From NCBI RefSeq assembly GCF_010994095.1, contig NZ_WJYO01000001.1:248001-312000 (forward strand): a stretch of 64,000 nt of DNA, read 5' to 3'. Below the pieces are notes generated by a model, which was not told the DNA's origin, made no database searches, and saw only the letters and a program-made list of their open reading frames with translations. Within the stretch, counting starts at the first letter, position 1. Each line of letters starts with the position of its first letter. Origin of the DNA: Mumia xiangluensis. Its GTDB lineage: Bacteria; Actinomycetota; Actinomycetes; Propionibacteriales; Nocardioidaceae. Shown piece by piece: positions 7,995 through 12,616 of this stretch. Position numbers and translations under genes: made by a program.

Positions 7995-9854
7995 CTAGCT
8001 CGCCCCGCCGAGCGGCAGGTCGATGCGGGCGGCGCCGTCGTCGGTCAGGCGGACCGGCACTCCCCAGTCCTGCTGGTGGACGTGGCACGCTGCACCGACC
8101 TCGTCGCCGTCGTCGCACGAGGCCGCCATCGCCGCCACGTGGAGGACACCGTCACCGACGGCCGGGTCGAGGACGAGACGTCGTACGAGGCCGGTCCCGC
8201 GGCCTTCTCCCTCACGGATCAGCGCCGGCGGCGTCGAGGTGACGACGAGGCGGGTCGCGGGGCCGTACCGCTCATCGAGGTGCTGGCCGGGCGGCGGCGT
8301 GAACGCGATCGAGAGCTCGACCTCGCCGCCGCGGACCTCGGTCGTCGGTCGTCCCGTGGTGTGGCTCGTCCCGGTGGCCCGCGCCGACGCGCCCAGCGCC
8401 ACCCGCGTCAGCCGGTGCGCCGCCGACTCGACGACCAGCAGCACGTCGCCGTCGAGGAGCAGGCCCGACGGCTCCGCGAGACCGGTGGCGAGCGTGCTCA
8501 CGATCTCGGTACGAGGGTCGTAGCGGCGTACGGCGCCGTTGTAGGTGTCCGCGATCGCCACCGAGCCGTCCGGCAGCGCGGCCAGCCCGAGAGGATGCTG
8601 CAGCAGCGCGTCGGCGGCGGGTCCGTCCACGAACCCGAAGTCGAACAGGCCCTTCCCGATCACCGTCTCGACGACGAGACCGGCGTCCCGCTCGACGATG
8701 CGCCGCAGCGCGCTCGCCTCCGGGTCGGCGAGCCACAACGTGTCGCCGTCGGGCGCGAGACGCGACGGCTGCGAGAACCACGCCTGCGCAAGCGGCCCGT
8801 CGACCAGCCCTTCGTTGGTCGTGCCCGCGACCACCTCGACGTCGCCGGTCGCCGGGTCGTACGTCCAGAGCTGATGGATGCCGGCCATCGCGATCCATAC
8901 CCGGTCACGCCACCAGGCGACGTCCCACGGGGAGGACAGCGACGTGGTCCCGTCGCCCTGCATCCACTGGCGTCCGTCGCCGGCCAGGACCTGAGTCTCA
9001 CCGTCCGCGAGACGTAGTCCGACGAGCTGATGGGCGAGGGTGTCGGCGACGACGACGTCGTACGCTGCCGCCTCCCGCACGTGCTCGGGCAGGAGGACCA
9101 GGCCGTTGGGCTCGCGGAAGCCCTCGTACCGCCGCACGACGGTGTCGCCGTCCAGCTCAGTCCCCGACGCGAGCGAGAGCTCAGTCCCCGACGCGAGCGA
9201 GAGCTCAGTCCCCGACGCGAGCGAGAGCTCAGTCCCCGACGCGAGCGAGAGCTCGACGAGACTCCCGCTCCCCGCATCAGCAACCAGCACAGACCCTGAC
9301 TCGAGCCGGATCGCGGTCGCCGGGAAGCGGAGGTCTCCCGCCTCTGGGACGGGAGCGACGTACGGGGAGCGGCCCCGCGTCAACGTGCCGCGGGCCTCGT
9401 ACTCCCCCATCACCTCGCCCAGCAGCGCGTCGATGGCGTGGACGTGCCCCTCACCGGCGTACTGCGCGATGACGTAGCCCTCAGGATCGATCAGCACCAG
9501 CGTCGGCCAGGCACGCGCGGTGTACGCCTGCCAGGTGGTGAGCTCCGGGTCGTCGAGCACCGCGTGCGTGATGCCGTTGCGCGCCACCGCGGAGGCGAGC
9601 GCGTCGGCATCGGCCTCGTGGGCGAACTTCGGCGAGTGCACGCTGACGACGACCAGCGCGTCGGCGTACTTCTCCTCCAGCGGGCGCATCTCGTCGAGGA
9701 CGTGCAGGCAGTTGATGCACCCTGACGTCCAGAAGTCCAGGACGACGAACCGGCCGCGGAGCAGCCCGAGGTCGAGGTCCTCCCCACCCGTGTTCAGCCA
9801 ACCGCGGCCTACCAGCTCGGGCGCCCTCACACGGGCACGACGCTTCTCGCTCAC
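7995..9854 (-). CDS. Thioredoxin-fold/NHL beta-propeller fusion protein (NHLRC2-like)
   Basis: A 619-residue protein. Residues ~10-150 are a TlpA/thioredoxin-like domain with the redox motif C46-I-N-C49 and a later cis-Pro region (RAWPTLVLID). Residues ~165-480 form an NHL-type beta propeller (FREPNGLVLL, LSSPWDVAWW, LQHPLGLAALPDGSVAIADTYNGAVRRYD). The C-terminal ~110 residues are a beta-rich extra domain. There is no signal peptide, so it appears cytoplasmic. Homologous fusions are known as NHLRC2-like proteins of unclear redox role. A perfect 24-bp repeat present four times encodes LSLASGTE units between the two domains. The GTG start overlaps the erm stop by four bases, but a separate -10 box also precedes it. 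Confidence 0.88.
   Translation of the reverse strand: MSEKRRARVRAPELVGRGWLNTGGEDLDLGLLRGRFVVLDFWTSGCINCLHVLDEMRPLEEKYADALVVVSVHSPKFAHEADADALASAVARNGITHAVLDDPELTTWQAYTARAWPTLVLIDPEGYVIAQYAGEGHVHAIDALLGEVMGEYEARGTLTRGRSPYVAPVPEAGDLRFPATAIRLESGSVLVADAGSGSLVELSLASGTELSLASGTELSLASGTELSLASGTELDGDTVVRRYEGFREPNGLVLLPEHVREAAAYDVVVADTLAHQLVGLRLADGETQVLAGDGRQWMQGDGTTSLSSPWDVAWWRDRVWIAMAGIHQLWTYDPATGDVEVVAGTTNEGLVDGPLAQAWFSQPSRLAPDGDTLWLADPEASALRRIVERDAGLVVETVIGKGLFDFGFVDGPAADALLQHPLGLAALPDGSVAIADTYNGAVRRYDPRTEIVSTLATGLAEPSGLLLDGDVLLVVESAAHRLTRVALGASARATGTSHTTGRPTTEVRGGEVELSIAFTPPPGQHLDERYGPATRLVVTSTPPALIREGEGRGTGLVRRLVLDPAVGDGVLHVAAMAASCDDGDEVGAACHVHQQDWGVPVRLTDDGAARIDLPLGGAS
9156..9251 (-). repeat. Four perfect 24-bp tandem repeats inside the thioredoxin-NHL gene
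   Basis: Identical 24-base copies begin at 9156, 9180, 9204 and 9228. In the minus-strand reading frame each adds the eight residues LSLASGTE. The unit is a multiple of three, so copy-number changes would keep the frame. There are no spacers, so this is not a CRISPR array. Confidence 0.95.
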
Positions 9855-10642
9855 CCTTGAAGCCTAGGCACGGGTGCCCGCGGCCCGACCACCGACCACA
9901 GCGACGCCCACTGCTGAGGCGTGAGGTCCCTCGGCAGGGCATCACGTGTCACTCCTGCGGCTCGCAGTGCGTGCCGCACCTCACCGGTGTGTGACCCGCT
10001 TGCCCGGACGAGGATCTGCTCCAGACCCGAGCCGCGGCCGGTGAAGGCCGCCTTGACGAACGCTTCGTACGGCGCTCGCTGGCGTGCGGGGACGAGCGGG
10101 CGTCCTCGGCGCTCGACGACGAGGATCCCGCCGTCGACACTCGGCACGGGCCTGAAGTGCCGGGCGGGCACGCGCTGGTGCAGCCGGAACTCGAACCACG
10201 GGGCGCTCTGCGCCGTCATCATCGTGCTCCCGCCGACCCCGGCTCGCTTCCGTGCCACCTCCCACTGCGTCAGGAGGATGCCGTGGCGCCAGCCGGGCGA
10301 TCTGAGCAGGCGCCGGAGAATCGGTGTGGTGAGGTGGAACGGGACGTTGCCGACCACCACGGGACGATCGAGCCGGACGTCGAGCGCGTCCGCGTGACGC
10401 ACCGTGACGGACGGCAGCCGGGACCGGAGCCGCTCGACGCGCCGCCGGTCGAGGTCGACCGCGGCCAGCTCGCGGCCCAGGCGCGCGAGCGGGTACGTGA
10501 GAGCGCCGTCGCCGCAGCCGATCTCGAGGATCGGCCCGTCGGTGGCACGGACGAGCGCGACGATCCGGTCGATCGTCGGACGGTGGTGGAGGAAGTTCTG
10601 GCCGAGCTCGTGCCGGCCGCCGTGCGGTGTGCGTGATCGCAA
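9851..10642 (-). CDS. erm: Erm-type 23S rRNA (adenine-N6)-methyltransferase
   Basis: A 263-residue SAM-dependent methyltransferase of the Erm/KsgA superfamily. Erm proteins methylate A2058 of 23S rRNA and block macrolide, lincosamide and streptogramin B binding. The HGGRHELGQNFL opening is the actinobacterial Erm signature. The SAM motif is LEIGCGDGALTYPLA, the acidic loop is AAVDLDRR, and the catalytic motif is NVPFHLTTPILRRLL (N-x-P-F). KsgA is a possible alternative, but the basic C-terminus and the HGRHELGQNF-type start favour Erm. The TTG start at 10642 has GGAG seven bases upstream. A leader peptide and hairpins precede it, implying inducible expression. The stop overlaps the start of the thioredoxin-NHL gene. 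Confidence 0.85.
   Translation of the reverse strand: MRSRTPHGGRHELGQNFLHHRPTIDRIVALVRATDGPILEIGCGDGALTYPLARLGRELAAVDLDRRRVERLRSRLPSVTVRHADALDVRLDRPVVVGNVPFHLTTPILRRLLRSPGWRHGILLTQWEVARKRAGVGGSTMMTAQSAPWFEFRLHQRVPARHFRPVPSVDGGILVVERRGRPLVPARQRAPYEAFVKAAFTGRGSGLEQILVRASGSHTGEVRHALRAAGVTRDALPRDLTPQQWASLWSVVGPRAPVPRLQG
9861..9866 (-). promoter_or_regulatory. Leaderless -10 box (thioredoxin-NHL gene)
   Basis: TAGGCT on the minus strand, six bases before the GTG at 9854. It lies inside the 3' end of erm, so the downstream gene can be transcribed apart from erm. Confidence 0.6.
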
Positions 10643-10670
10643 GAGAGCGCTCCAACCGGAGAGGAGAGGA

Positions 10671-10751
10671 GCACCCGGACGTGGGTCGTTCGACGCGCTG
10701 CCGGGTGCGAGGGCATCCGGAGGACGGCGCGGAGGAAGAAGGACGCGCCGT
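10671..10751 (-). promoter_or_regulatory. Candidate erm translational attenuator hairpins
   Basis: Two hairpins lie between the leader peptide and erm. The first pairs ACGGCGCG (10724-10731) with CGCGCCGT (10744-10751) and touches the leader stop codon. The second pairs GCACCCGG (10671-10678) with CCGGGTGC (10701-10708) about 18 bases from the erm Shine-Dalgarno sequence. A ribosome stalled on the leader could change this fold. I did not compute energies. Confidence 0.5.
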
Positions 10752-10813
10752 CAGGCTCGGCGGGGGCGCACCACGAGAGTGCACGCGCGAGCCAGCGCGG
10801 GAGTCGTACTCAT
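10751..10813 (-). CDS. Erm leader peptide (20 residues)
   Basis: A short reading frame of 20 codons, MSTTPALARACTLVVRPRRA. Two features match known macrolide arrest peptides: a TLVV stretch like the IAVV of ErmAL, and an R-P-R (+X+) element like the R-L-R of ErmDL. It starts 171 bases upstream of erm and is followed directly by hairpins. Its ATG lies seven bases after a TACGGT -10 box, so the transcript probably begins at the leader start codon. The peptide is my own reading and has not been checked experimentally. Confidence 0.6.
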   Translation of the reverse strand: MSTTPALARACTLVVRPRRA

Positions 10814-10820
10814 GCGCGAC

Positions 10821-10826
10821 ACCGTA
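10821..10826 (-). promoter_or_regulatory. Leaderless -10 box (erm leader)
   Basis: TACGGT on the minus strand, seven bases before the leader ATG at 10813. It lies just downstream of the response regulator stop codon, which makes it the likely erm promoter. Confidence 0.55.
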
Positions 10827-10853
10827 CGCGGGACGGCGACGACCGTCATCCGG

Positions 10854-11510
10854 TTATCCGTCAGCCCGCAGGCCGGACTCGATCGCGAACACCACGAGCT
10901 GCGCCCGGTCGCGCGCGTGGAGCTTCACCATCGCGCGGCTGACGTGCGTGCGGACCGTGTCCGGACTGACCACGAGCGCGTCGGCGATCTCGGAGTTGGA
11001 GCGGCCGGTCGCGACCCAGCCGAGGATCTCGCGCTCCCTCTCGGTGAGGTCGTCGAGCCGCGGGTGCGGGCGGGCCGCGGCGGACGAGCCGCTGAACCGC
11101 TCGATCACCGTGCGCGTCACCGACGGGGCGAGCAGGGACCCGCCCGCGGCCACGACGCGGATGCCGTCGAGCAGCGCCGCCGGCTCCGCGTCCTTGAGCA
11201 GGAACCCGCTGGCCCCGTGCCGCAGCGCCTCGAAGACGTACTCGTCGAGCTCGAAGGTCGTGAGCATCACGATGCGTACGCCGTCCAGCGCGGCGTCGCC
11301 GTTGACCTCCGCGAGCAGCGCGAGCCCGTCGAGCACCGGCATCCGGATGTCGCACAGCACCACGTCGGGTGTCGTCCGGCGGATCAGCGCGAGCCCTTCG
11401 CGCCCGTCCGCGGCCGAGCCGACGAGCTCGAGCCCGTCCTCGGCGTCGATCAGGGTCGCGAGTCCCATCCGGACGAGCGGCTGGTCGTCGACGAGCGCGA
11501 CCCGGATCAC
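10854..11510 (-). CDS. NarL/LuxR family response regulator
   Basis: A 218-residue response regulator. The receiver domain (residues ~1-120) has the acidic pocket LVDD and the phospho-acceptor Asp in DVVLCDIRMPVLDG, then Lys in FLLKDAEP. The C-terminal LuxR helix-turn-helix reads LTEREREILGWVATGRSNSEIADALVVSPDTVRTHVSRAM. Its ATG overlaps the kinase stop by four bases. Together they form a kinase-regulator operon divergent from an ABC-2 exporter, which is the usual target of this type of system. Confidence 0.93.
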   Translation of the reverse strand: MIRVALVDDQPLVRMGLATLIDAEDGLELVGSAADGREGLALIRRTTPDVVLCDIRMPVLDGLALLAEVNGDAALDGVRIVMLTTFELDEYVFEALRHGASGFLLKDAEPAALLDGIRVVAAGGSLLAPSVTRTVIERFSGSSAAARPHPRLDDLTEREREILGWVATGRSNSEIADALVVSPDTVRTHVSRAMVKLHARDRAQLVVFAIESGLRADG

Positions 11511-12616
11511 GGCTCCTCCGGCAGCGTCGCGCGGACGCGGAAGCCCGCGCCGCCGGCCGGACCCACGTCGAGCACGCCGCCGACCTCACCGACGCGTGCG
11601 CGCATGCCCGTGATGCCCATGCCCTCATCCTGGCCGGAGGACGGTCCACCGCGCCCGTCGTCGCTCACCGTCACCTCGAGCGCGCGGTCGATGCGGGCGA
11701 AGGCGACCACGGCCCGGGTCGCGCCTGCGTGCCGCAGGACGTTGGTCAGTGCCTCCTGCACGACCGCGTACACGACCTCGCCGCGACGGTCGTCGACGTC
11801 GTCCAGGTCGCCGGTCCTCACGACCTCCAGCCCGCCTGCGCGGACCCGGTCGAGCAGCGCGTCGAGGTCGTCGATCCCCCGTGCGGGTCGGCGTACGGCC
11901 TCGGTGCCGGACATCCGCCCGAGCTCGGCACGCAGCGCGTCGAGCGACTCACGGCTCGTCGCGCGGATCGCCTCGATGCTCTCGCGTGCCTTCGCCGGAT
12001 CGCGGTCGAGCACGTGCAGAGCGACCCCCGCCTGCATCGCGATCACCGCGAGGCCGTGGCCGACCCCGTCGTGCAGGTCCTGCGCCATCCGCAGCCGCTC
12101 CTCGGTCGCAGCGCGGGCGCTGCGGTCGACGCGCGAGGACTGCAGCTGGCTCACGGCGGTGGCGACTGCACCGGCCGCGGCGACCACGGCGAGCAGCCCG
12201 ATGGCCTGCCACACCTCCTGCGTCCGCTGCCCGTCGGTGGCGAGCATCCGGATGACGAGCGAGACCGCGGCGACGAAGGCGGCGCCGACGGCCCAGGGCA
12301 CCCAGCGGTGCGACGTGGCGCGCACCGCGACCACGAACGTCACGGTCGGGAGCGCCAAGAAGATCGGCCCGTCCGCGAAGCCCGCCCCGAGGTAGACGGC
12401 CGTGCAGACCCCGCTCGCCGCGAGCGCGACGTCCGCACGCCAAGGGAGGACGGCGGGAAGGACGGCGAGCACGGCAGTGAGAGTGGCTCCGACGACCTCG
12501 CCGTGGCTGGAACCCAACTCCCGGTTGGACGCGACCGTGCCGAGCAGCACGACGATCACCACGGTCCACGGCCACCAGCCGGGAGCGTGGACCAGGTCGG
12601 TGCGTCGGTCGCTCAC
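11507..12616 (-). CDS. Sensor histidine kinase (HisKA_3 type)
   Basis: A 369-residue membrane kinase. Residues ~8-150 hold several hydrophobic segments (WWPWTVVIVVLLGTV and others) with almost no external domain, typical of intramembrane sensors of cell-envelope stress or antibiotics. The phospho-acceptor His is in QDLHDGVGHGLAVIAMQ, and the ATPase has NVLRHAGATRAVV and VSDDGRGG. The GTG at 12616 is chosen because a TATCCT -10 box lies six bases upstream; a longer start at 12643 would cover that box. It forms an operon with the response regulator. Confidence 0.9.
   Translation of the reverse strand: MSDRRTDLVHAPGWWPWTVVIVVLLGTVASNRELGSSHGEVVGATLTAVLAVLPAVLPWRADVALAASGVCTAVYLGAGFADGPIFLALPTVTFVVAVRATSHRWVPWAVGAAFVAAVSLVIRMLATDGQRTQEVWQAIGLLAVVAAAGAVATAVSQLQSSRVDRSARAATEERLRMAQDLHDGVGHGLAVIAMQAGVALHVLDRDPAKARESIEAIRATSRESLDALRAELGRMSGTEAVRRPARGIDDLDALLDRVRAGGLEVVRTGDLDDVDDRRGEVVYAVVQEALTNVLRHAGATRAVVAFARIDRALEVTVSDDGRGGPSSGQDEGMGITGMRARVGEVGGVLDVGPAGGAGFRVRATLPEEP

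Follow-up and report, generated by a model that had tools for sequence, protein, structure and literature searches.

We consider it likely that the erm gene of Mumia xiangluensis is controlled by a drug-inducible translational attenuator whose trigger is a +X+ (ErmDL-class) arrest peptide on a leaderless mRNA. The gene and its leader lie on the reverse strand of the window (the whole stretch analyzed, 64,000 nt). The open reading frame downstream of the leader, which the sequence-only reading had called an Erm methyltransferase, matched the NCBIfam equivalog NF000499 at 245.4 bits (cut-off 212) and also PF00398. By family membership the product is a true Erm, from which methylation of A2058 and MLS resistance are predicted. 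Translation starts at TTG 10642 (relative L006 has ATG at the equivalent position), with the Shine-Dalgarno sequence GGAG 7 nt upstream. At the other end of erm, its stop codon and the GTG start of the following gene overlap (GTGA, 9851-9854, minus), an arrangement that suggests translational coupling. This neighbor (7995-9854) encodes a thioredoxin-like/NHL-repeat protein with four in-frame tandem ELSLASGT copies (~9140-9250, minus; coordinates estimated from the translation), and the 24-nt repeat unit could vary in copy number.

The leader frame is intact in the translation of the window. As that reading had also noted, it begins 7 nt after a TACGGT hexamer, so that the -10 box fills the position where a leader Shine-Dalgarno would be; we counted a start as leaderless when TANNNT lay 6-8 nt before it. 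The elements of the region, in the direction of transcription, are as follows.

10854-10857, minus: ATAA, AT-rich, adjoining the -35-like hexamer on its upstream side; possible WhiB7 element
10844-10849, minus: -35-like hexamer ATGACG, 17 nt upstream of TACGGT; putative role, from sequence and spacing
10821-10826, minus: -10 box TACGGT, separated by GTCGCGC (7 nt) from the leader ATG at 10813
10751-10813, minus: leader ORF, MSTTPALARACTLVVRPRRA-stop, 20 codons; probably translated from a leaderless mRNA
10757-10768, minus: codons of the candidate arrest motif R-P-R-R, first Arg five residues before the stop; mechanism proposed by analogy with ErmDL (PMC8298421)
10744-10751, minus: segment 2, ACGGCGCG, overlapping the leader stop codon
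10724-10731, minus: segment 3, CGCGCCGU, partner of segment 2
10701-10708, minus: segment 4, GCACCCGG, with partner CCGGGUGC at 10678-10671
10668-10678, minus: segment 5, CCGGGUGCUCC, pairing with segment 4 or with segment 6
10646-10653, minus: segment 6, GGAGCGCU, holding the erm Shine-Dalgarno GGAG, with partner GGUGCUCC at 10675-10668
9851-10642, minus: erm, 23S rRNA adenine-N6 methyltransferase, TTG start (NF000499, PF00398)

An Rfam scan of 9000-12000 returned no match above any gathering cut-off. The sequence TGACGGCGCG on its own is frequent in the genome (67 sites) and is not diagnostic.

Conservation of the leader was evident within the family and well beyond it. A strong Erm match was present in 10/150 genomes of the same family (this genome counted), and all ten loci carried an equivalent short frame upstream, with the ending R-x-R-[RSA]-[RAS]-(A)-stop; the search for this frame in related genomes, proposed earlier, was thus positive. 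The R-x-R versions at these loci were RPR (three), RLR (one), RDR (two), RHR (one), and RER (three), and TANNNT preceded the leader start by exactly 7 nt in 9/10. A scan of the genome collection and an order-wide search also recovered the leader in Microbacterium, Kocuria, Leucobacter, Cellulomonas, Amycolatopsis, Frankia, Isoptericola, Dietzia, Gordonia, and other genera, frequently in the form MGT[LI].SAP......[VIF]RDRRA-stop-CGGCGCG. The earlier suggestion that the IAVV-like TLVV contributes to arrest fared less well: LVV occurs in only two of four Mumia leaders and LVI in a third, relatives keep only a V, I, or F before the first Arg, and an IAVV-class leader was rejected, TLVV being confined to two Mumia leaders.

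We collected 92 distinct actinobacterial erm upstream regions and listed all ATG/GTG frames of 7-35 codons. A short ORF began 6-8 nt after a TANNNT hexamer in 80/92 regions, compared with 35/920 shuffled sequences. Arg-x-Arg fell within the last nine residues of 82/85 leaderless-spaced ORFs but of only 17/180 other short ORFs (with a different stop), in support of the +X+ reading of R-P-R; both features occurred together in 77/92 regions. A set of 79 non-identical loci, picked by the spacing and motif rules, gave a starker contrast (79/79 with a late Arg-x-Arg in a short ORF at 6-8 nt, against 6/1580 dinucleotide shuffles), although these loci were chosen by the same rule and the 92-region test, made without selection for Arg-x-Arg, is the fairer one. 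Within this set the first Arg stood exactly five residues before the stop in 76/79 loci, x was Asp in 51/79, and V, I, or F immediately preceded the first Arg in 63/79, the usual ending being R-D-R-R-A-stop followed by CGGCGCG. The distance from the -10 box to the start was 7 nt (55 loci), 6 nt (17), or 8 nt (7). Because this spacing is strict and leaves no room for a Shine-Dalgarno sequence, a leaderless transcript is implied, with transcription probably starting at the leader ATG. The N-terminal half of the peptide showed no codon-position bias (0.33/0.34/0.32), and coding constraint is visible only near the C-terminus. Across 396 genomes of the phylum, the leader-tail pattern gave seven matches, two of them erm leaders, and no second type of gene with this tail was found; the other five were set aside as chance, with no Erm-like motif in the downstream DNA fetched.

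The hairpins noted earlier between the leader and the erm ribosome-binding site proved real, and three of the helices covary. The erm Shine-Dalgarno region pairs with an upstream GYGCUCC segment (the 5:6 helix) in 77/79 loci. We assessed pairing by an alignment-free species swap (51 representatives below 80% identity, 200 permutations), which controls only partly for shared ancestry. Complementarity was higher within loci than between swapped partners for 4:5 (22.5 vs 17.8, z 10.0), 2:3 (22.3 vs 21.2, z 4.3), and 5:6 (18.7 vs 18.1, z 2.9), the observed value being reached in 0/200 permutations each time, whereas a 3:4 helix was unsupported in a swap of the same kind (z 1.5; 17/200 permutations). 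Since both 4:5 and 5:6 draw on segment 5, only one of them can form at a time; in 5:6 the erm Shine-Dalgarno is buried.

Folding calculations reproduced the switch in part. With the footprint of a stalled ribosome masked in silico, P(2:3) rose from 0.47 to 0.73, P(4:5) rose from 0.24 to 0.30, and P(5:6) fell from 0.59 to 0.44. A similar shift appeared with segment 1 (the leader end) left unmasked, and the effect therefore lacks specificity for the stall register; between the stall edge and the termination edge, only P(4:5) of the truncated transcript differed clearly, by 0.04. Accessibility of the erm Shine-Dalgarno at equilibrium was unchanged by masking and low in all states (mean unpaired 0.064 vs 0.064), and transcripts ending before the Shine-Dalgarno showed no useful difference in the accessibility of segment 5. 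In the Mumia window itself, 1:2 pairing was weak and 2:3 was present in every state. The comparative data thus support the parts of a switch; the equilibrium model yields a partial, non-specific one and is not proof.

From these elements we infer a start of transcription, a stall, and an order of refolding. Transcription would begin at the leader AUG or 1-2 bases from it, and the first ribosome would load on the leaderless end. With a macrolide or ketolide present, Arg-x-Arg should stall this ribosome, by analogy with known +X+ leaders, when the x codon occupies the P site and an Arg codon the A site. The leading edge of a ribosome lies ~16 nt from the P-site codon. That of the stalled ribosome would end just past the leader stop, before GGCGCG, whereas a terminating ribosome would cover GGCGCG. 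Segment 1 would then be covered and segment 2 free to pair with 3; segment 4 would pair with 5, releasing the erm Shine-Dalgarno in segment 6 from 5. In the absence of drug, the ribosome would reach the stop and depart, 5 would pair with 6, and erm would stay off. The sequence-only reading is partly supported: its main line, a leaderless +X+ leader controlling erm, appears right, and its IAVV-like element is unsupported.

Three other explanations were weighed against the attenuator. Many short open frames are expected in DNA of high G+C content, and the leader could in principle be one of them, with hairpins unrelated to it. We rejected such a chance ORF as wholly improbable, given the excess of leaderless-spaced frames over shuffled sequences, the enrichment of Arg-x-Arg, the covarying helices, and conservation across genera. 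Unlikely, though deserving more weight, is induction chiefly at the level of transcription, by an activator of the WhiB7 type acting at the AT-rich element upstream of the -35 hexamer, the leader setting only basal translation. WhiB7 depends on an AT-rich motif immediately ahead of the -35 element (PMC3905903), and the whiB7 regulon of M. tuberculosis includes erm(37) (PMC4128351). An AT-rich patch lies at -36 to -24 from the -10 hexamer in 24/79 promoters, compared with 1-6 at most other positions, and two WhiB proteins encoded in the genome carry AT-hook tails (RGRPRK and RGRGRPR; L142, L143). The patch is nevertheless absent from most promoters of the set, and such control leaves the fixed Arg-x-Arg register and the covarying helices unexplained. 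WhiB7 control and the leader can coexist, and erm may be under both.

Slightly less probable again is an arrangement in which the target of the stalled ribosome is transcription termination or mRNA stability, and not erm initiation. Other Erm-type leaders are reported to work by transcription attenuation or pausing (PMC6851288), and the lack of a clean switch in the equilibrium folds would fit such a route. Set against it, the helices appear, by visual reading of the sequences, to be without the trailing T runs typical of intrinsic terminators, and the covarying 5:6 helix buries the Shine-Dalgarno directly. Translational attenuation therefore remains our preferred reading. We hold it possible, if short of probable, that a leaderless start is integral to macrolide sensing in actinobacterial erm genes at large: the transcript would always open with the arrest peptide, loaded with no Shine-Dalgarno, the five-residue distance from Arg-x-Arg to the stop would place the stalled ribosome's edge at the switch helix, and the whole might be layered on WhiB7 control.

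Several loci depart from the common plan. Near-identical erm loci in Arthrobacter, Agrococcus, Brevibacterium, Leucobacter, and Actinomyces (L094, L096, L103, L104, and L106) share an eight-residue leader, MGTLIFAR-stop, with the same -10 spacing and without Arg-x-Arg, possibly another arrest class. In locus L010 the leader tail, together with its stop and hairpin (CGGCACCGCCGCGCCTGACGGCGCGGC), occurs three times in tandem ~110-200 nt upstream of erm. Several genera (L014-L016, L041-L044, L046, and L047) have one and the same erm preceded by an identical 208-nt leader region, which is indicative of recent spread, and in L017, L045, and L051 the leader is replaced by foreign, apparently transposase-like DNA, a loss that may render erm constitutive. 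The candidate macrolide-sensor family spans many actinobacterial genera and includes plasmid-borne erm genes of medical and veterinary interest. If the proposal is true, erm leaders of actinobacteria begin leaderless transcripts. The natural variation at x (Asp, Glu, Pro, Leu, His, and Asn) bears on what +X+ arrest tolerates.

This kind of leader is already known, since those of Erm(X) and Erm(36) have the same architecture. The leader had been judged undescribed-looking; as regards the Arg-x-Arg class this does not hold, ErmDL being an example and the Erm(X) frame being annotated as an erythromycin resistance leader peptide in the pAP2 record, while our literature searches turned up no mention of erm leaders that start leaderless. 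The Erm(X) leader (MLISGTAFLRLRTNR on pNG2) is likewise short, with Arg-x-Arg near its end, TATAAT 7 nt before the ATG, and hairpins up to the erm Shine-Dalgarno, but it ends LRLR-x-NR-stop instead of VRxRRA-stop and its Erm is ~50% identical; translational attenuation has been suggested for erm(X) in a genome paper (PMC3350403). The leaders of Erm(36) (Micrococcus luteus pMEC2, MGSPSIAVTRFRRF) and Erm(55) (MGITSVAVIRIRRF) share R-x-R-R-F-stop with the motif five residues before the stop, yet are shorter, have another attenuator sequence, and precede Erm proteins 48-52% identical. In plasmid records, TANNNT stands 6-7 nt before the start of the Erm(36), Erm(55), Erm(X), Erm(50), Erm(51), and Erm(46) leaders. 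The Erm(46) leader MGNTNIAVTEFRRF (L123, pVAPA2287; 155-113 nt upstream of erm) keeps the leaderless plan, with TEFRRF replacing R-x-R, i.e. Glu for the first Arg.

The ErmDL leader is led by a Shine-Dalgarno sequence and is not leaderless. It resembles the present one in carrying a +X+ arrest motif upstream of erm, and cryo-EM has established that ErmDL arrests at Arg-Leu-Arg while Leu occupies the P site (PMC8298421); unlike here, the motif occupies residues 6-8 of a 14-residue peptide (PMC8298421). ErmDL depends critically on the motif with telithromycin and less with erythromycin, and the same drug dependence may therefore hold for the present leader. Across uORF families, a survey that took in 35 known erm genes and their homologs saw no pattern of conservation that held universally (PMC11264731); when the search is made by -10 spacing, one emerges within the actinobacterial Erm group studied here. 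In mycobacteria, small leaderless ORFs are reported to act as attenuators (reviewed in PMC9031893). The polycysteine uORFs among them resemble the proposed leader as leaderless small ORFs that sense through ribosome speed, but they sense cysteine instead of a drug, with a different motif and ahead of different genes.
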